The notes beneath the pieces were generated by a model. The model had not been told where the DNA came from. It saw only the letters and a list, made by a program, of their open reading frames with translations, and ran no database searches. A program made the position numbers and the translations under genes. This document shows positions 7,057 to 43,606 of a stretch of DNA of 64,000 nt, in pieces (the first letter of the stretch is position 1; each line of letters opens with the position of its first letter). This DNA is from Alphaproteobacteria bacterium (GTDB lineage: Bacteria > Pseudomonadota > Alphaproteobacteria > ATCC43930 > CGMCC-115725), in NCBI GenBank assembly GCA_019240125.1, contig JAFAYW010000183.1:1-64000 (forward strand). Direction: 5' to 3'.

Positions 7057-7474
7057 GGCCACACACTTTTCTTCTGATCCGCCACAACGGCGCGCGCGGC
7101 GTTAAGGGGCGCTCACCAGTCTGCGCCGCGCCGGGAAAGGGACTTACTTAGTGCCTTAAGAGCGTAGCTGCCGCTGCGGCGGATGCGCTTAAGTCACGGA
7201 AGTGTTATGAGTTCTGCGCATATCGGACTTGACGGCTGTGCATTTCTGTGGCGTGAATAAATCAGCTTCCGCATAGGAGGCAAAATCCGGGAGCGGGCAA
7301 ACCCGCCTCGATTTCGAACAGGAGGAACCACGGCGCGCGGCTTTGACCGCTGCGGCCGATGGGCGAGGCTTCACGTCGGGAGATCGTAGCAAGAAACCAC
7401 CCAACATCCTGGATACAAGCGGCCGCGACCATCGCCGTTGCTGTCATGGCGGCTCCGTCTCAGGAGCATAGGTC

Positions 7475-33546: not shown

Positions 33547-33632
33547 GCGGGTGTGGCGGAATGGCAGACGCGGCAGACTCAAAATCTGCTTCCCGTAAGG
33601 GAGTGGGGGTTCAAGTCCCTTCACCCGCACCA
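33547..33632 (+). tRNA. tRNA-Leu(CAA), CCA encoded
   Basis: Acceptor GCGGGTG/CACCCGC; anticodon arm GCAGA-CTCAAAA-TCTGC; variable arm; T-arm GGGGGTTCAAGTCCCTT; ends ACCA. Confidence 0.95.
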
Positions 33633-33723: not shown

Positions 33724-34737
33724 CTATCTGGATGATCCGTCGGTCGATCTCACCCTCCCGGTAGGTCGATCTACGTCACCCGGTTCCTCTCTGGCGGGCG
33801 CGGTACGAAGCGCCTCCAAGGCGATCAGCGCGTTGCGCATGGCGCCGGCGCATTGCTCGACCAAGGGAACCAGTCCGTCGCTGAGTTGAGCGAGATGCTG
33901 ACCGACTGCCGAGGTCGCCAACGCGTCGTCCTGATCCGGTAGAGGAAGCTCCGACGCTGCGTTTGCGAACAACGCGTGCTCGACGGTTGCGCTGAGGCGA
34001 GCGACCCAGCCGGTCACCTGAATGAATTCCTGGTAGGCGGCAATGACCTGTTCGCTCAGCAATATCGCTGCGCAATCGTCACCATAATCGTCGATAAGAC
34101 GCCGCCGCATGTCAGACAGCGATGCCGCCTGACCGTCATCGATCACACCGATCGTCCCGAGCCGGCGAAGCAAAAGCGAGGCCGGCGTCACAGTTCCCGG
34201 ATCACGCGAGGCACTTGCCTCGCATTGCGGATTAACGCGCTCGACAGCAAAAGGCGGCCGGTTCACGGCCACTCTGCTCGTATCGTCACCTGATTCGCAA
34301 CTACCGCTTGCCGATCCGGTTGGGCGGCCAATGATCACGTTTGGAGGTGCGGGCGGAGCAGCGATCAAGGCAGGCGAGCCGGCGCCCCTATCTCCTACCA
34401 GCACTCTGGCAGTAAAGCGGTAGCCGTATCCTGTGACAGTCTGAATACAGCTTCCATGTACCCTGTCTTGGTCGAGAATGTGCCGCAGCTTCGATATCTG
34501 CACATTAAGATTAGCCTCCTCGACGGCTCTGCCTGACCAGACAATGGTCATCAATTCTTCCTTCGTCACCGTCTCGCCATTACGTCGCGCGAGGAGTGAA
34601 AGCAGATCAAGCGTCCGTGATCCCAGCGGCACAAGGCTGGCGCTTCCCCTCTCATCGACACGGAACAGCCCACCCGCCCGCCGGTCAAGCCGGAAGCCAT
34701 CGAGAAGCAGCACGTCATCGGGAGCAGGCGAAGGCAC
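33724..34737 (-). CDS. wHTH (OmpR/CadC-type) transcriptional regulator
   Basis: N-terminal 'LVPLGSRTLDLLSLLARRNGETVTKEELMTIVWSGRAVEEANLNVQISKLRHIL...IQTVTGYGYRFTA'; divergent from the RiPP-like genes; unknown C-terminal domain. Confidence 0.88.
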   Translation of the reverse strand: MPSPAPDDVLLLDGFRLDRRAGGLFRVDERGSASLVPLGSRTLDLLSLLARRNGETVTKEELMTIVWSGRAVEEANLNVQISKLRHILDQDRVHGSCIQTVTGYGYRFTARVLVGDRGAGSPALIAAPPAPPNVIIGRPTGSASGSCESGDDTSRVAVNRPPFAVERVNPQCEASASRDPGTVTPASLLLRRLGTIGVIDDGQAASLSDMRRRLIDDYGDDCAAILLSEQVIAAYQEFIQVTGWVARLSATVEHALFANAASELPLPDQDDALATSAVGQHLAQLSDGLVPLVEQCAGAMRNALIALEALRTAPAREEPGDVDRPTGRVRSTDGSSR

Positions 34738-34850
34738 GGCTTTCCCCTACCTAGTCGGCGATTGTTTGCAACTCTACTGCAACGTCTCCAGACATGAGCG
34801 TGAGTTACTTCACACCATCGTAAAAGCCCGCCTGCTCGCTTTTTACACGA

Positions 34851-34882
34851 GTGACTAACAACCGGTTTCGGCAGTTAGTCAC
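34851..34882. promoter_or_regulatory. 9+9 bp perfect inverted repeat, candidate operator
   Basis: GTGACTAAC-N14-GTTAGTCAC in the divergent region between regulator and cluster; related GTGAGTTAC at 34800-34808. Confidence 0.5.
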
Positions 34883-35013
34883 AAACTGCCAGGTGATTTG
34901 GAACGTTTTGGCCCGGCCTCATAGTGCGACCCTGGCACCTAGCTCAGATTGCAGCACGGCCTGGGACACAATAACACATGCGTCACCCGACCGAACATCT
35001 GAAGGAGATCGAG

Positions 35014-35157
35014 ATGAAAGTAGTAACGAGGCCTGGTGCAACTGCGGAAAGGCACGCACCGCCGCAGCCCGTCGTACTCCCGCCGGAATGGCTTGAGCAC
35101 GTCGCCGGCGGCTTAAATCCGCAACCGCTGCCGCCGCGTCACGAAGAGTTTAGGTGA
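35014..35157 (+). CDS. candidate RiPP precursor peptide 1 (47 aa, GG leader)
   Basis: Read directly, absent from ORF track: MKVVTRPGATAERHAPPQPVVLPPEWLEHVAGG|LNPQPLPPRHEEFR; RBS GAAGGAG upstream; leader shared with 35220 and 39728 ORFs. Confidence 0.72.
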   Translation: MKVVTRPGATAERHAPPQPVVLPPEWLEHVAGGLNPQPLPPRHEEFR

Positions 35158-35219
35158 GCGCAGCGCGCCAGCGCGAGTTTCCCGGCTCATAAGCCAGTCA
35201 TTGGATAGTGGAGGAAGAA

Positions 35220-35408
35220 ATGTCGTCACCCAAACACGAGCAGCAAGATTGCGCGCCGCTGCCGAAACCAATCGCGTTAACCGCCGACCAGCTGCAGCAG
35301 GTGGCTGCCGGTACGGCGCTGTTACTGCCGATCGCCACGCTACGGCCAATCATCGCCGGCCCATACCCGGTGGGGCCGATATGGGCCAGCGCTACCGCAG
35401 CTGAGTAG
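35220..35408 (+). CDS. candidate RiPP precursor peptide 2 (62 aa, AG leader)
   Basis: MSSPKHEQQDCAPLPKPIALTADQLQQVAAG|TALLLPIATLRPIIAGPYPVGPIWASATAAE; RBS GGAGGAAG. Confidence 0.72.
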   Translation: MSSPKHEQQDCAPLPKPIALTADQLQQVAAGTALLLPIATLRPIIAGPYPVGPIWASATAAE

Positions 35409-35483
35409 ACACGGATGCCCGGCAGCGGGTCCCAAACACACTGCTGCCGGGCGCATCCTTTCTCGCTGCGGAGGAAGCGCGTC

Positions 35484-35921
35484 ATGAACAGGTTCGATGA
35501 AGAGAAAGCGGTGGTCCTGTGCCCGAGCGCCACAACGATCGGCCCAAGCTCAAAGGTATTCGGCGTGTTGACCGGAACCCCCGAGGCCGGTTTTCAGGTC
35601 GCCTATCTGACAGAAGCCGTCCCGGCGACACCACAGCTCCTTGAGGCGATTGCGCCGGCAAAACCGACCGAACTCCTGCGGGTCGCGTCGCCCTGCGTTG
35701 AACACGCCTGCCAGCATTTTGACGGTGCAAATTGCCAGCTCGGGAAGCGCATCGCGACGATGCTGGACCCGGCTGTCGCCACATTGCCGCGATGTGCGAT
35801 CCGTCCACGGTGCCGGTGGTTTAGCCAGGAGGGGCCTGCCGCGTGCCGGCGCTGTCCACTGGTTGCCACGGAACAACGCAATCCGAACGAGCTGCAACGT
35901 ACGGTCGCCGGTCGAGAGTGA
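35484..35921 (+). CDS. Cys-rich protein of unknown function in RiPP-like locus
   Basis: ATG at 35484; pattern CVEHACQHFDGANC...RCAIRPRCRWFSQEGPAACRRCP; lies between precursors and exporter genes. Confidence 0.75.
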   Translation: MNRFDEEKAVVLCPSATTIGPSSKVFGVLTGTPEAGFQVAYLTEAVPATPQLLEAIAPAKPTELLRVASPCVEHACQHFDGANCQLGKRIATMLDPAVATLPRCAIRPRCRWFSQEGPAACRRCPLVATEQRNPNELQRTVAGRE

Positions 35922-35928
35922 GATCGCG

Positions 35929-37176
35929 ATGGCAGTCACTCTCTTTCGTCAGCAGGCGATCGACCATCAGCGCCATCGGATCTGGGGTGAGGTGGCGCTG
36001 TCCGTGCCCCTGTCGTACACGCTGGTGACGGGATTCCTGGCGCTCTCCTTGCTCGTGGCAGCGTCATTTATCGCAACCCACACCTATTCCCGGAAGGAGC
36101 ACGCGATCGGCTTTCTGTTGCCCACAAGCGGCATCGCGCGGATCACGCCGCCGCGGCCGGGCATCATCAGCGCGGTAAGCGTTGTTGAAGGTCAGCGCGT
36201 CGAGCGCGGCGCGACGCTGCTCAAGGTAACAGACACCCAGACCTCTGAGCAGGGCGAGAATCTCGACGCCACCAAGGCCGACGAGCTGCGCAAGCAGCGC
36301 GGCGAGCTGCAGGCACAACGTGCGCTGGAGCGCGACAAGACCGCTGTCGAAGAACAGGGTCTGCAGTCGCGGATCGAAAGCGGTGAGGAGGGACTTTTGG
36401 CGCTGCAACGCCAGCAGGCAATCCAAGTCGACCGTATCAATATCGCGCAACGGCAAATGGCCGGAGCCATCGAGCTCGCCGGCAAGGGCTACTTTTCCGC
36501 GGTCGAGCTGCGGCGTCGCCAGGATGCCTATCTCGCGGAGCAGCAAAGCGAAAGCGCGCTTGCCCGCGAGGCCGCCGCAAAGCAGGCCGAACTCGGCCAA
36601 TTGCGAGACAATCTACGCCAGCTGCCGATCGCGACCGCGCAGCGTACCGCGCAGTTTGCGGCCAGCATTTCCGAGATCGATGCCCGGCTGACCGAAATCG
36701 AAGGTCGCCGTGGGTATCAGGTACAGGCTCCGATCGCCGGTCGTGTGTCCACATTGCAGGCGTGGGTCGGCAAGACAGCCGATCCGAAAATCCCCGTTCT
36801 GTCGATCGTGCCCGCCGATGACGTCCTCGAAGCCGAGTTGCTGATACCGGCACGCGCTATCGGCTATGTCGCGCCCGGTCAGACCGTTCAGATCAGCTAT
36901 GACACATTCCCGTTCGCGCAATTCGGGTTCGCGCGCGGAACGGTTCGTGTGGTGTCCCACACAATGCTGAAGCCCGACGAGATCGTTGGCCCGCTGCAAT
37001 TGCGCGAGCCGTCATATCCGATATCCGTCGCGTTGCAGCGGCAAACCGTCACCGCGCATGGCGCCGAGCTGCCGCTGGAGCCGGATCTGCAGCTGCAGGC
37101 CGACATCGTCTCGGAACAACGGACGCTGCTTGCCTGGATACTCGAGCCCGCCTTCGGTGCCTGGAGACAGCGATGA
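35929..37176 (+). CDS. HlyD-family periplasmic adaptor subunit
   Basis: Single N-terminal TM, coiled-coil, 'YQVQAPIAGRVSTLQAWVGKTADPKIPVLSIVPADDVLEAELLIPARAIGYV'. Confidence 0.9.
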   Translation: MAVTLFRQQAIDHQRHRIWGEVALSVPLSYTLVTGFLALSLLVAASFIATHTYSRKEHAIGFLLPTSGIARITPPRPGIISAVSVVEGQRVERGATLLKVTDTQTSEQGENLDATKADELRKQRGELQAQRALERDKTAVEEQGLQSRIESGEEGLLALQRQQAIQVDRINIAQRQMAGAIELAGKGYFSAVELRRRQDAYLAEQQSESALAREAAAKQAELGQLRDNLRQLPIATAQRTAQFAASISEIDARLTEIEGRRGYQVQAPIAGRVSTLQAWVGKTADPKIPVLSIVPADDVLEAELLIPARAIGYVAPGQTVQISYDTFPFAQFGFARGTVRVVSHTMLKPDEIVGPLQLREPSYPISVALQRQTVTAHGAELPLEPDLQLQADIVSEQRTLLAWILEPAFGAWRQR

Positions 37177-39281
37177 AACTCACCGGACTGCCGCGCCGCT
37201 TGCCGGAAATCCGCCAGGCTGCGGCGAGCGAATGCGGTCTTGCGTGCCTCGCGATGATCGCTAGTTTCCATGGCCGCCACACCGAACTTGCCGCGCTTCG
37301 GCGGGAATTTCCGGTGTCGCTGAAAGGCGCGACGCTGGTGACGTTGATGGAAATCGCAACGCGGCTCGGCCTCGTCGGACGCCCGTTGCGGCTGGAGGTA
37401 GCGCATTTGCGCACACTCCAACTCCCCGCCGTCCTGCATTGGAATATGAACCATTTCGTCGTGCTGCGGGACGCCGGCCGCACCGGTGTCACCATTCACG
37501 ATCCGGCATTCGGCGCCCGGCGGTACAGCTATGAGGATGTCTCGAAACACTTCACCGGCGTGGCACTCGAACTGACAAAAGACCTGGCGTTTCAGGCACA
37601 ACAAGCCGCCACGAAACTCTCAATGCTGGATTTCTTCGGGAGGATCACGGGCTTCGTCCCGGCCTTATTGCAGACACTGGTTCTTTCGGCGGTATTGCAG
37701 CTCTACGTGCTTGCCAGCCCGTTCTATATGCAGCTCGCCGTCGATAATGCGATTGCCCGCGATGACCACGATTTGCTGTTCGTGCTGGCGTTCGGGTTCG
37801 CGCTGTTTCTGCTGATCAACACCGGCGCCAGCCTGATACGCGCCAAGCTGTTGGCGCAGGCTCAAAGCGCGCTGGCCTTCCAGATGGGCGCCGGTCTTTT
37901 CCGGCACCTGCTGCGCCTGCCGCTGGTTTATTTCGAGAAGCGACATGTCGGGGATCTCGTATCGCGCTTCTCATCGACGGAGCCGGTGCGCAACCTGCTG
38001 GCCGAAGGGCTGGTGACGGCGATTATAGACGGCGCGATGGCCAGCCTGACCGCGGCGATGATGTTCATCTACCGGCCGTCGCTCGGCCTCATCGTGCTTG
38101 CCGCACTCGCCGCCTACATTCTCGTTCGCATCGCCTTTTTTCATCTCACGAAACGCCGCACGCTCGATCTGATTGAAGCCAGGAGCCGCGAGAGCACGAC
38201 CTTTATCGAGACAATGCGAGCGGTCCAGAGCATCAAGATTTTTACGCGTGAGAACGAACGCGGCGCGGTATGGATGAACCGCTATGCGGAGGTGGTCCGC
38301 GCCGAGGCGATATCGGGGTTTCTGAAGCAGGCGTTCCGCATCGCCAATGATCTGATTTTTGGCCTGGAGAACGTGCTGATCGTCTATCTCGGCGCCCGGG
38401 CGGCGCTCGACGGCGAGATGACTGTCGGAATGCTGTTCGCGTTTATTTCCTATAAGCAGCAATTCGGTGACAAGGCGGCCCGGCTGGTGGAGCGGGCGAT
38501 CGAATTCCGGATGCTCGACCTGCATCTCGAACGTCTGAGTGACATTGCGGGCACCGAACCGGAAGCATCGCATTTCCGCGCGGCAGCCTATCAGCCGCCG
38601 ATCCAGGGAAATCTGGAAGTACGCAACCTCTGCTTTCGCTATGCCGATGGCGAACCGCTGGTGTTGCAGGACGTCAATTTCAGCATTCGGGCGGGTGAAT
38701 ATGTCGCGATCACCGGTCCTTCCGGCGGCGGCAAGACGACCTTACTGAAGCTGATCCTGGGGCTCTTGGAACCGACTGCCGGGGAGGTTCTGATCGATGG
38801 CATGCCATTGCAGGTTATCGGCCATGAGCTGTTTCGCAAAAACATCGGGGTTGTCATGCAGGACGACCAGCTGCTGTCCGGTTCGATCGCCGACAACATA
38901 TGCTTCTTTGACGACAGCTTCGACCTCGACCACATGGTGCGCTGCGCCGAGCTCGCCGGCATCCACAACGAGATTTCTCGCATGCCGATGGCCTATAACA
39001 GCCTGATCGGCGACATGGGAACGTCATTATCCGGCGGACAGAAGCAACGCATCTTGCTAGCACGCGCCTTGTACCGCCGGCCGCGCTTGTTGTTCATGGA
39101 CGAAGGCACCTCGCACCTCGATCTGGCGACCGAGCGTCAGGTGACAAATGCGGTGAAATCGCTCGGATTGACACGCATCATCATCGCCCATCGTCCCGAG
39201 ACGATTGCATCGGCGGCGCGCTGCCTTACGTTGCGCGACGGGCAACTACATGAAGCGCACGAGCGTCTGGCAGCCGCTTGA
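37173..39281 (+). CDS. C39 peptidase-containing ABC exporter (bacteriocin-type PCAT)
   Basis: C39 'IRQAAASECGLACLAMIASFHGR', 'LHWNMNHFVVL', 'IHDPAFG'; ABC Walker A 'GPSGGGKTTLLK', 'SLSGGQKQRILLARAL'; 4-nt overlap with HlyD gene. Confidence 0.95.
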   Translation: MKLTGLPRRLPEIRQAAASECGLACLAMIASFHGRHTELAALRREFPVSLKGATLVTLMEIATRLGLVGRPLRLEVAHLRTLQLPAVLHWNMNHFVVLRDAGRTGVTIHDPAFGARRYSYEDVSKHFTGVALELTKDLAFQAQQAATKLSMLDFFGRITGFVPALLQTLVLSAVLQLYVLASPFYMQLAVDNAIARDDHDLLFVLAFGFALFLLINTGASLIRAKLLAQAQSALAFQMGAGLFRHLLRLPLVYFEKRHVGDLVSRFSSTEPVRNLLAEGLVTAIIDGAMASLTAAMMFIYRPSLGLIVLAALAAYILVRIAFFHLTKRRTLDLIEARSRESTTFIETMRAVQSIKIFTRENERGAVWMNRYAEVVRAEAISGFLKQAFRIANDLIFGLENVLIVYLGARAALDGEMTVGMLFAFISYKQQFGDKAARLVERAIEFRMLDLHLERLSDIAGTEPEASHFRAAAYQPPIQGNLEVRNLCFRYADGEPLVLQDVNFSIRAGEYVAITGPSGGGKTTLLKLILGLLEPTAGEVLIDGMPLQVIGHELFRKNIGVVMQDDQLLSGSIADNICFFDDSFDLDHMVRCAELAGIHNEISRMPMAYNSLIGDMGTSLSGGQKQRILLARALYRRPRLLFMDEGTSHLDLATERQVTNAVKSLGLTRIIIAHRPETIASAARCLTLRDGQLHEAHERLAAA

Positions 39282-39727
39282 GGGACAGCCACTGCGGCGC
39301 ATACCAGTGTCGTTTACTCCACGTGGCAAAGTGATTCTCACCTAAAAATATAAGGAAACTTTGCGAACGCAGGGACCCACCCCCTCAACGCGCTTCGAAT
39401 TTGGAGTTTAGCGCCACAACGGCGCGTCGCGCCGGCCGCGCAGGAGCCCTGCCCTACGGTGGGCCCCCTGCTTTCGCAGGCACGACATCGTGTGCGGGAG
39501 TTGTTCCATCGGAACACAGCAAAGTCTAAATTTATAGCGGTGTTTATTTGCTATATTTTCTACTAAGTAATTTACAAATATTCATACGGAAGTCACAGAA
39601 ATACACCACTCCAAATCGCATAGTGGGACTGTCACCGGCGCGGTTGGCACCAACAAGGGACCAGCACCACCGGAACCACGGTCACATACGTGATCGGCGT
39701 TTCACTTGCAATGACAAGGAGTTGTAC

Positions 39728-39910
39728 ATGAGCGACATCGACACCCGCACGCGCCCGTCAACCGAGACAGGCGAGTTCGAACTGCCCCTGCCGGAGCCGA
39801 TCGTGCTCGGCACGGAAGCGACGAAAGCAGTCGCCGGCGGGCTGATCCGTCCGACCCTTTGCACGACCTGTGGCCTGATGCAGCCATTCCCGGTTGAGAA
39901 GCTCGCCTGA
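39728..39910 (+). CDS. candidate RiPP precursor peptide 3 (60 aa, GG leader, CTTC core)
   Basis: MSDIDTRTRPSTETGEFELPLPEPIVLGTEATKAVAGG|LIRPTLCTTCGLMQPFPVEKLA; RBS AAGGAG; 2 nt before MNIO gene. Confidence 0.82.
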   Translation: MSDIDTRTRPSTETGEFELPLPEPIVLGTEATKAVAGGLIRPTLCTTCGLMQPFPVEKLA

Positions 39911-39912
39911 CA

Positions 39913-40869
39913 ATGACCCTCGTCCCATCCGCGCCCATCATGCCGTTCGCCAGCGTTCACAAAACGCCGCGGCCGCTCGGCATCGGCTTTTCCTATCTGC
40001 CGGCTTTCCCGGCCGAATTCTATCGAACCGAGCTGCTGGACTTTGTCGAAATGACACCGGAAAAGCTGTGCCGGGCGCGGTGGGACGGTGGGTTTTTCAA
40101 GCTCGACCTGGTCTCGGAGAAAATAGACACCGCACAGCAAGCCTGTCACGACTTGCCACTTGTCGTGCACGGGATCGAGCTATCGATCGGCTCAGCGGCA
40201 GGCTGGAACGGCGGCTATCTTGAGATGCTCGACCGGTTTCAGGAGCGCTGGCCGTTTCGCTGGCACAGCGAGCACCTCAGCTACCAGACCATCCCGCGAG
40301 ACGCAGGGGGCGCCACCAGCATCGGCACCCCGCTGCCACTCCCCGGCGGCATGGAAGCGGTACAGCTCGTTGGCGAACGAGCGCGCGAAATCAACCGCCG
40401 CTACGGTGTTCCATTCCTTCTGGAGAACCCCGCGCATTATCTGCGCGAGCTGCCATACGAAAGCCCGATTGGTGACGAATTCGACCTGATGGCGGCCGTC
40501 ACCGACCATGGGGAGTGCGGTCAGCTGCTTGATCTCCATAACCTCTACTGCAATGCGATCAATCACGGCTTCGACCTCAGCGCCGCGCTCGACCGTATTG
40601 CGCTTGATCGGGTTAGCGAAATCCACGTTGCCGGCGGACGCTGGGAAAGCAGGTTCTGGGTGGACGCGCATGACAGCCTGGTTCCCGAGCCGGTCTGGAA
40701 CCTGCTCGCGGCCACCTTGCCACGCTGTCCGAACCTCGCGGGGATCGTATTCGAATTGCTCGATTTTTTTGCCCCGACAGTCGGGGTTGAAGCTGTCACA
40801 GCCGAGCTGCGCCGCATGCAGGACGTATGGCACCGTTTCGGCCCGGCGGACGGCGCAGCGAGGCATTAG
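39913..40869 (+). CDS. DUF692 / multinuclear non-heme iron oxidative (MNIO) enzyme
   Basis: 'GIGFSYLPAF', 'HGIELSIG', 'WHSEHLSY', 'NRRYGVPFLLENP', 'LLDLHNLYCNAINHGFD', 'EIHVAGG', 'DAHDSLVPEPVWNLL'. Confidence 0.95.
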   Translation: MTLVPSAPIMPFASVHKTPRPLGIGFSYLPAFPAEFYRTELLDFVEMTPEKLCRARWDGGFFKLDLVSEKIDTAQQACHDLPLVVHGIELSIGSAAGWNGGYLEMLDRFQERWPFRWHSEHLSYQTIPRDAGGATSIGTPLPLPGGMEAVQLVGERAREINRRYGVPFLLENPAHYLRELPYESPIGDEFDLMAAVTDHGECGQLLDLHNLYCNAINHGFDLSAALDRIALDRVSEIHVAGGRWESRFWVDAHDSLVPEPVWNLLAATLPRCPNLAGIVFELLDFFAPTVGVEAVTAELRRMQDVWHRFGPADGAARH

Positions 40870-40872
40870 CGC

Positions 40873-41622
40873 ATGCCTCTACTTCAGCAGCAGATTCTTC
40901 TGGGGCGGTGCCTGTTGGCAACCGATCCCGAAGCGGTCATCGCGACAGCTCCCACTGCTGTCTTGGCGCGCCCGGCGGAAGTGGCGCGGCTGCAGGAACT
41001 CATTCATGGCGACGGCTTTCAATTCACGCGCGCCATTCATCGCTCGTGGTGCGTCGCCCGCGCGGCTGGTGCCGTACGCATGACGCTGTCGGTCCTGGCA
41101 CCCGAGCAGCGTCGGCGGCTTCTCGATGATTGGGTCGAGGCCGGCGGCGGCAACGCGCTTGACGTGACGACTGAGGCCGCCGGTTTTCTCGATGTCGTTG
41201 CGCAGCATCTGCCCGATCCGTCACACGCGCTCTCAATCTGCCGGATGGAACAAGCGGCCTACCGGGCGAGCGCCGCTGCCGCCTGCTTCACCCCGCCGAA
41301 CCCGACGGCTCTAAACAATCCTTGGACGATGCTGCGACGCGGTAGCGATGCCGCCCTCGTCCGGTTCCTTGCCGAGCCGCGCCGCGTTTTCGAGGCTTTG
41401 GCGGCCGGTGAGCCATTGCCGCCGTTCGAAGGCTCATTCCCATACCTTTTCGCGCCAGGTCTGGCGACGCTGCGGCGGCCGGCAACGCCAGATGAAACAG
41501 CGCTCTGGGACAGGCTCCTGATGCCGACACGCCTTGGCGTGCTCGGCGATAATGCCGTGTCAGCTTCCCTGATCGGGGAATTGCTCGCGGTGGGCGCGAT
41601 CACGCTCGCACAACCCAGCTGA
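40873..41622 (+). CDS. putative MNIO partner / peptide-recognition protein
   Basis: 249 aa ORF 3 nt after MNIO; 'SICRMEQAAYRASAAAACF' faintly like the DUF2063-type partner motif; position only otherwise. Confidence 0.55.
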   Translation: MPLLQQQILLGRCLLATDPEAVIATAPTAVLARPAEVARLQELIHGDGFQFTRAIHRSWCVARAAGAVRMTLSVLAPEQRRRLLDDWVEAGGGNALDVTTEAAGFLDVVAQHLPDPSHALSICRMEQAAYRASAAAACFTPPNPTALNNPWTMLRRGSDAALVRFLAEPRRVFEALAAGEPLPPFEGSFPYLFAPGLATLRRPATPDETALWDRLLMPTRLGVLGDNAVSASLIGELLAVGAITLAQPS

Positions 41623-41641: not shown

Positions 41642-43606
41642 TTAAGCGCCGCCTCTCTCGGGAGCGGTTTGAGCCGGTTTCTGCTCGGCCAACTCGGGCG
41701 CGGCCGCGAGATCAAGCGTTGCCGGGGCCAACAGCAGAGCGCTTTCGCCGGGGATATGCAGAAAGCCGTTGCGATACAGCGGCGGCACTCCCATTCCGCC
41801 GTATTTCGCGCGCTCGCTAGTCCATAAGATTTGCCAGGCCTTTTCTTCTGGTGGCGCCAGCAGCGGCTCCGGCATCGGCGACAATGTGAGGTCGAGGCCA
41901 AGATTGATGATCAGGACGCGGTCATCCTCAGCGCCGAAGAAGCGCAGCATCCAGGCCCGCTCGGCTATTTCTGTTCCATCGACGTGCCTTGGCCGGGATT
42001 TCAGCACAGGGTCGCTGCGACGCAGGGCCAGCAGATCGCGGTGCAGCGCATATGCCGCGGCGTGCGTCTCACGCTCAGCGAAGTCGAGGACACAACGGCG
42101 GAATGTGGCCTCGTCGTCAGGGGCTGGAATACGCGCCTGCATCTCGGGGTCGGCGAGGTTGGGGAATTGCGCGAGAAATTTGCCGCGTCCGGCGCTGACC
42201 GCCGCCGCCAAGTCCGGCTTGTGATCGGCGAAATACAAAAATGGTTTCGAGGTCGAGAATTCCTGTCCCTGCAACAGCATTGGTATCCCGGGCATCAGCA
42301 GGAAATACGCGGTCAAGGCGCGGTGCTTGCCCGGGCTGGTGAGCTGATGGACACGCCGGCCGCTATCGGAATTGGCGATCTGATCGTGATTTTCCAGAAA
42401 TACGACAAAGCAATCCGGGGTGAGGTCCAAGGCCGGCTTGCCGCGTCGCTGTTTTTGCCACGCGTACCGCTGACCCTGGTAGAGGAAGCCGTGTTTGGCC
42501 GCGGCGACGAACTCGCGCGGCGTGCCGCGATAGTCGGTGTAATAGGCCTCGTGATGTCCGGTCAGCGCGACGAATGCGCTGTGATGAAAGTCGTCGTTCC
42601 ACAGCGAGTCGATCCCGTACCCGCCGCGCTCGGCGGGGCGCACCAGCTTGCCTTCCTGGCGTTCGTTTTCACCAACGATGAAGGTGGCGCGGCCCCGCCC
42701 GGCCGCCCGTACGCGGCGCGTTATCGCAGCGATGATGTGGTCTTCGGAGGCGTCGAATATCTGCTGGGTAGCGTCGAGGCGCAGCCCGTCGAGATGGTAT
42801 TCGTCGATCCAATAGCCGGCATTGGCGATAAAATACTCGCGCACCGGCCCGGCATCGGGGCCATCGAAGTTAAGTGCCTCGCCCCATTCGTTCGAGTAGC
42901 GGTGGCTGATGTACTGACCGGCGAAACAGCTCAGGTAATTCCCATCGGGTCCGAGATGGTTGTAGACGACGTCGAGGATGATGGCGATCCCGAGACCGTG
43001 CGCGCGATCGACAAAAGTCCGCAGGTCATCCGGATTGCCGTAGAGCCGCGTTGGTGCGAACAGATTGACGCCATCATACCCCCAGCCAAAGCGGCCGGCA
43101 AAGTCGGCGATCGGCATCAGCTCGATGCACGTAACGCCGATATCAGCCAGCTCGGCGAGTTGTTCCGCGGCAGCCCGCCAGGTCCCCTCCGTCGTAAACG
43201 TACCGACATGCATCTCGTAAATGACCAATTCCTCGCGCCGCCGTCCCTGCCATGCTGCATCGCTCCACGCGAAGCCGCTGGGATCGACGATCTGGGATGG
43301 CCCGTGCGGACCGTCTGGTTGGAAGCGGGACGCAGGATCCGGCCATGCCATATCCCCACCCTTGGCGCGGAAGCGATAGCGCATGCCGGCGTTGGCGGCC
43401 GAGAGAAAGGCCGAGAAGTAACCGTCGGGTTCAGGCACGAGGTCATGCGGCGCCAGACCTTCGATCTCGACGGCAAGGTCCTGGCAGCGTGGGGCCCAAA
43501 CGCGAAAATGCACGCCGCCCTCGGACATCTCGGCGCCGACCGGGAGCCGGCGGAGCGTCGGCCCGGGCTCGCCGCTCACAGCGGCAGCGAGGTTCGACTT
43601 GTTCAA
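41642..43606 (-). CDS. treZ: malto-oligosyltrehalose trehalohydrolase
   Basis: 'YEMHVGTFTTEGTWRAA', 'IELMPIADFAGRFGWGYDGVNLFAPTRLYG', 'VYNHLGPDGNYL', 'GLRLDATQQI'. Confidence 0.95.
   Translation of the reverse strand: MNKSNLAAAVSGEPGPTLRRLPVGAEMSEGGVHFRVWAPRCQDLAVEIEGLAPHDLVPEPDGYFSAFLSAANAGMRYRFRAKGGDMAWPDPASRFQPDGPHGPSQIVDPSGFAWSDAAWQGRRREELVIYEMHVGTFTTEGTWRAAAEQLAELADIGVTCIELMPIADFAGRFGWGYDGVNLFAPTRLYGNPDDLRTFVDRAHGLGIAIILDVVYNHLGPDGNYLSCFAGQYISHRYSNEWGEALNFDGPDAGPVREYFIANAGYWIDEYHLDGLRLDATQQIFDASEDHIIAAITRRVRAAGRGRATFIVGENERQEGKLVRPAERGGYGIDSLWNDDFHHSAFVALTGHHEAYYTDYRGTPREFVAAAKHGFLYQGQRYAWQKQRRGKPALDLTPDCFVVFLENHDQIANSDSGRRVHQLTSPGKHRALTAYFLLMPGIPMLLQGQEFSTSKPFLYFADHKPDLAAAVSAGRGKFLAQFPNLADPEMQARIPAPDDEATFRRCVLDFAERETHAAAYALHRDLLALRRSDPVLKSRPRHVDGTEIAERAWMLRFFGAEDDRVLIINLGLDLTLSPMPEPLLAPPEEKAWQILWTSERAKYGGMGVPPLYRNGFLHIPGESALLLAPATLDLAAAPELAEQKPAQTAPERGGA

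Follow-up and report, generated by a model that had tools for sequence, protein, structure and literature searches.

A candidate double-glycine export locus joined to a precursor–MNIO–partner cassette in an alphaproteobacterial genome

We analysed a candidate peptide locus at positions 33724-41622 of a 64,000-nucleotide stretch of DNA (the window; contig JAFAYW010000183.1 of assembly GCA_019240125.1) from an alphaproteobacterium whose genome comprises 372 contigs and 6.27 Mb, with an estimated contamination of 6.5%. The locus is probably a double-glycine export locus joined to a cassette of precursor, MNIO (DUF692) enzyme and partner protein, in which the third of three precursor peptides, P3, would be oxidized on a CTTCG motif, cleaved after VAGG and exported. 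Every gene named in the original prediction, which was made from the letters of the window, was recovered at its position using open reading frames (ORFs), Pfam and NCBIfam models, and predicted folds. All genes of the locus lie in the same direction except that of the divergent regulator. The features are as follows.

33724-34737, minus strand: winged helix-turn-helix (wHTH) regulator with an N-terminal Trans_reg_C domain and no receiver domain (Pfam PF00486, 60.5 bits)
35014-35157, plus strand: precursor P1, leader 1-33, core LNPQPLPPRHEEFR; Shine-Dalgarno (SD) sequence AAGGAG; leader signature at 35062-35112
35220-35408, plus strand: precursor P2, leader 1-31 ending in VAAG, core TALLLPIATLRPIIAGPYPVGPIWASATAAE; leader signature at 35262-35312
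35484-35921, plus strand: Cys-rich putative accessory protein of 145 aa; seven Cys invariant among homologues
35929-37176, plus strand: HlyD-type periplasmic adaptor (HlyD_3, 59.8 bits; TIGR01843, 122.5 bits, below its cut-off)
37173-39281, plus strand: C39 peptidase/ABC exporter (Peptidase_C39, 110 bits; ABC_membrane, 118.5 bits; ABC_tran, 115.7 bits)
39282-39727: intergenic gap of 446 bp with an AT-rich stretch, seen in the sequence
39728-39910, plus strand: precursor P3, leader 1-38 ending in VAGG, core LIRPTLCTTCGLMQPFPVEKLA; SD sequence AAGGAG; leader signature at 39791-39841
39860-39874, plus strand: CTTCG motif of P3, the predicted modification site; CxxCG is kept in the relatives' precursors
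39913-40869, plus strand: MNIO (DUF692) enzyme (PF05114, 159.7 bits, cut-off 25)
40873-41622, plus strand: MNIO partner, assigned to PME-type 2 from an AlphaFold model and Foldseek; no Pfam or NCBIfam match

The two halves of the locus are linked by the leaders of the precursors. The ungapped leader segments of P1 (PQPVVLPPEWLEHVAGG), P2 (PKPIALTADQLQQVAAG) and P3 (PEPIVLGTEATKAVAGG) have six identical positions over 17 residues, a number reached in 0 of 2000 shuffles. A DNA pattern for PxP[IV]xL-x7-VA[GA]G matched just three sites in the 6.27 Mb genome, one each in P1, P2 and P3, and the same pattern read backwards, used as a control in that genome, matched none. As the pattern was derived from P1-P3, their recovery is by construction, and what is informative is that no other site matched. 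The sharing of this leader by the three peptides is not a chance pattern. Since the signature occurs nowhere else in the genome, it is very likely that P3, which is encoded in the MNIO operon, shares an exporter with P1 and P2.

The exporter half has the components of a C39 double-glycine export system, namely a complete catalytic triad in the C39 domain (C21, H94 and D110, read from the sequence), ABC domains, an HlyD adaptor and three GG/AG leaders. These data support the C39 export proposed in the original prediction. The only other C39 match in the genome (locus L081) was weak and did not contain the catalytic Cys motif, such that the exporter studied here appears to be the only active-looking one. 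It scored 492.8 bits against the NHLP export equivalog TIGR03796, below the cut-off of 853.3 bits. No match to the TolC family (OEP) was found anywhere on the contig, in agreement with the original statement that the window contains no TolC-like gene. Ten OEP matches occur elsewhere in the genome, several of them full genes, and type I secretion is therefore possible. Among plasmids, the nearest exporter was that of Bradyrhizobium sp. 195, with identities of 54.7% (C39) and 41% (HlyD). A small ORF upstream of it carries the leader HPIELSDEELDLVAAG, in which the P, L, V, A and G positions are invariant with P1-P3.

The second half centres on an MNIO enzyme. The protein matched the superfamily model PF05114 well above its cut-off and has a complete set of multi-iron ligands: the TglH ligands H71, H107, E151, D184, N187, H216, D229, H231 and E258 (PMC10880893) correspond to H86, H121, E171, D207, N210, H238, D251, H253 and E281, respectively, and all nine are invariant. 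Its nearest relatives were found in an Acetobacteraceae metagenome-assembled genome (MAG; 54% identity), Sphingomonas sp. LaA6.9 (51%), Rhizorhabdus, Sphingomonas Y57 and a proteobacterial MAG (each 49%), a Chloroflexota MAG (46%, with a disrupted reading frame) and, more distantly, a Bryobacter MAG (33%). These relatives are a lower bound, as the scan of genomes relied on short patterns matched exactly. With the MNIO of the locus as the sole query the scan returned no relatives; they were found with a query alignment that included a distant relative. No further member of the family was found in 398 genomes of the phylum, and 385 genomes of the class yielded a single distant full-length relative (35%). 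Plasmids contained no relatives of P3 or the partner and only distant ones of the MNIO, and phages contained none of the MNIO. Judged by its 46-54% identity to proteins of six distant genomes, the enzyme belongs to a rare subfamily.

In six of the seven relatives, a short ORF directly upstream of the MNIO gene encodes a CxxCG motif: CLECG in Sphingomonas LaA6.9, CEACG in Acetobacteraceae, CEGCG in both Rhizorhabdus and Sphingomonas Y57, CNPCG in the proteobacterial MAG and CSQCG in Chloroflexota. The seventh and most distant, Bryobacter, has CGGC. A homologue of the partner follows the MNIO in the relatives' loci. Because a Cys-pair ORF and a partner gene accompany the relatives' MNIOs, precursor(CxxCG), MNIO and partner constitute a conserved cassette. 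The presence of a Cys-pair precursor in all seven relatives also strengthens the original proposal that P3 is the likely MNIO substrate. The cassette is compact and widely scattered, occurring in Alphaproteobacteria and Chloroflexota, and a single short substrate would suffice to test its chemistry. In the Chloroflexota locus (L062, 9959-11467), the MNIO is split over two frames, reflecting a frameshift or an assembly error, while the CxxCG ORF and the partner are retained. In Sphingomonas sp. LaA6.9, the cassette lies inside a lasso peptide cluster (L057, 7073-18090) that encodes a lasso B2 protein, an asparagine-synthase-like cyclase, a candidate lasso precursor (7073-7210), an Atxe2-family isopeptidase (708 bits), a TonB receptor, FecR and an ECF sigma factor. 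This location of an MNIO looks unusual.

The partner was assigned by fold. Its AlphaFold model (pLDDT 78, from an alignment of seven sequences) gave TglI as the best Foldseek match (8hi7/8hci; prob 1.00, E 1.6e-3) and NGO1945 (3dee) as the third. Such a match to TglI/NGO1945 defines a PME-type 2 partner (PMC12452194) and, according to the model, the protein is of this type, with no DUF2063 sequence match. Together with the PF05114 match and the iron ligands, this TglI-like fold bears out the MNIO and partner claimed originally. Precursors without a signal peptide go with PME-type 2 partners (PMC12452194), and the locus fits this correlation on both counts.

On the gene content, the iron ligands, the C39 triad, the shared leader and the CxxCG–MNIO–partner linkage, we infer the following reaction, order of steps and secretion. 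P3 would be bound by the partner and presented to the MNIO, which would oxidize one or both Cys of CTTCG in an iron- and O2-dependent reaction. The C39 domain would then cut P3 after VAGG and, likewise, P1 after VAGG and P2 after VAAG, and the cores would be secreted by ABC/HlyD with a TolC protein encoded elsewhere in the genome. Thiooxazoles form in EGKCG peptides (PMC12538549). As the Cys-Gly step of P3 resembles these peptides, the likeliest product by analogy is of the thiooxazole or oxazolone/thioamide type, other known MNIO reactions on Cys being possible. The mature peptide may act in metal binding or antagonism. We tentatively suggest, as a reading somewhat less probable than its contrary, that the leader of P3 serves two machines, the helix recognized by MNIO and partner (EATKAV; EAVKAV in the relatives' locus L061) lying inside the C39 signature PxPIxL...VAGG. 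In that case, a peptide with oxidized Cys would leave as one of three via a single C39 exporter, a new route for MNIO products. Many of the MNIO products described to date exit via Sec or lack a known protease or exporter. With a leader peptidase and an exporter of its own, a locus of this kind provides a defined cleavage site and mature product, so that the entire peptide could be produced and studied.

Several observations weigh against this joined pathway. The P3 leader has T at one usual position instead of the L shared by P1 and P2, the 446-bp gap separates the two halves and is the sole real gap in the locus, and the exact joined locus was not found in a second genome. Moreover, no C39 peptidase, HlyD or Cys-rich gene was found in the relatives' available flanks (10 kb at most, and far less for L058 and on one side of L061), where ABC matches comprised the ATPase domain only. 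Of the co-occurrence anticipated in the original prediction, the pairing of MNIO and precursor thus held and that of MNIO and C39 did not. Because no homologous MNIO adjoins a C39 exporter in these flanks, conservation does not support the joining, and the MNIO-C39 combination is a joining seen here only rather than a general pairing. The gap, and the fact that the relatives' cassettes stand alone with a product presumably kept in the cell, would also suit two distinct systems lying side by side: a microcin-like export operon for P1 and P2, and an independent MNIO cassette with an intracellular product, the VAGG of P3 being coincidental. We consider this unlikely, since P3 carries the full 17-residue signature, found elsewhere in the genome only in P1 and P2, and the relatives' CxxCG precursors do not contain it.

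Within a joined locus, the MNIO and partner might also modify P1 and P2 at non-Cys residues, yielding a modified family with differing cores. With a leader in common, all three peptides could attract the partner, and some other MNIOs have Asp, Asn or aromatic residues as their targets (PMC11002830, PMC13060819). By contrast, the relatives' MNIOs all occur with Cys-pair precursors, and the cores of P1 and P2 contain neither Cys nor an MNIO-family hallmark, making this a slightly poorer prospect than separate systems. The remaining alternative is that the MNIO acts on the 145-aa Cys-rich protein. Its seven invariant Cys (C71, C76, C84, C104, C110, C121 and C124) recall the large Cys-rich MNIO substrates proposed in PMC12452194. 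However, its gene is not adjacent to that of the MNIO, and no MNIO was found beside its homologues in at least six unrelated loci, which leaves this the most improbable of the three by some distance. The homologues adjoin Nif11/NHLP precursors in Nostoc and, in Spirosoma, an NHLP exporter together with a VSGG peptide; others come from Streptomyces (on a plasmid), Agrobacterium vitis and Polymorphobacter, among other sources. Because some of them adjoin peptide genes and none was found with an MNIO, the Cys-rich protein is best placed with the export half. P1 and P2 resemble the exporter's cargo, and this ORF its accessory. The original idea of one MNIO peptide family with several divergent cores was not sustained, given the Cys-free cores of P1 and P2 and the MNIO-free neighbourhoods of the Cys-rich homologues. 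In preference to these alternatives, we retain the reading in which P3 is modified and shares the exporter of P1 and P2.

The Cys-rich proteins form a family of ~130-160 aa with seven invariant Cys that recurs by double-glycine or NHLP/Nif11 peptide genes (L065-L069 and L076) in Cyanobacteriota, Bacteroidota and Pseudomonadota and matches no Pfam, NCBIfam or PHROGs model.

The locus resembles several known systems in part. Methanobactin synthesis (MbnB/MbnC) is not indicated (TIGR04159, 12.4 bits; cut-off 325). Bufferins (BufABC) likewise employ an MNIO and partner acting on Cys, but with Sec signal peptides and DUF2063 partners in place of a double-glycine leader and PME-type 2 partner; the BufB model scored 135 bits against a cut-off of 310, and neither P3 nor the partner had a Pfam match. 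The TglHI/pearlin system shares the iron ligands, the partner fold, with TglI as the best structural match, and the LDLHN motif, but no TglB-type peptide aminoacyl-tRNA ligase occurs in the locus, the precursor and genes differ, and MNIO identity is low. These comparisons uphold the original view that the layout is unlike those of methanobactin, TglHI and bufferin. Adjamnio-7 (Antoine et al. 2025, PMC12452194), predicted in silico, also has a CxxC precursor without a signal peptide adjoining an MNIO, a likeness drawn from the precursor description, not the MNIO sequence. C39, HlyD and double-glycine leaders, all present here, go unmentioned in the main text of that paper. CvaAB-type/class II microcin export combines HlyD and C39-ABC with short double-glycine peptides and a TolC encoded elsewhere, whereas the classical systems have no MNIO modification cassette. 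The nearest published case, the pfl cluster of Pseudomonas fluorescens (PMC12636437), has an MNIO domain, an NHLP-type leader and two transporters, but differs in its MNIO-nitroreductase fusion and HEXXH enzyme, and its authors state that no double-Gly cleavage site is evident. The locus thus joins a known enzyme family, in a rare MNIO subfamily, to a known exporter in a pairing that we did not find described: a search of the open-access literature did not turn up any MNIO cluster that also has a C39 exporter and a double-glycine precursor.

P1, P2, P3 and the Cys-rich ORF each have an upstream SD sequence. A P1 start at 34978 was dropped in favour of the ATG at 35014, which has a good AAGGAG. 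No Pfam or NCBIfam family was found for the three short ORFs, the Cys-rich ORF or the partner. The description of the peptides as Pro-rich applies to P1 (LNPQPLPPR) and partly to P2, but the core of P3 is better described by CTTCG. The NPQPLPP motif of P1 is present as a single copy in the genome, and a literature search found no paper on it. From its position, the wHTH regulator presumably controls the operon, and the AT-rich gap probably holds a separate promoter for the MNIO cassette; scans for promoters (sigma-70 consensus) and terminators gave nothing above chance.

With respect to origin, a treZ-like neighbour (41642-43606) occurs in five congeners (61-69% identity) without the locus beside it, and gain of the locus by transfer is therefore possible. 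A tRNA-Leu(CAA) gene at 33547-33632 was rejected as an island attachment site, as its 3' end is not repeated in the window and there is no clear G+C break.

Two further MNIO loci were observed. A second MNIO in the source genome (L001, 411-2624; G000:C365) lies downstream of a TIGR04222 membrane protein (130.5 bits) whose tail is rich in Cys and Gly, and upstream of a 91-aa ORF, in agreement with the known TIGR04222-MNIO arrangement. A Burkholderia stagnalis plasmid (L044, 7719-13864) carries an uncharacterized MNIO cluster with two methyltransferase-domain proteins, a radical SAM protein and, upstream, a 77-aa hypothetical ORF.

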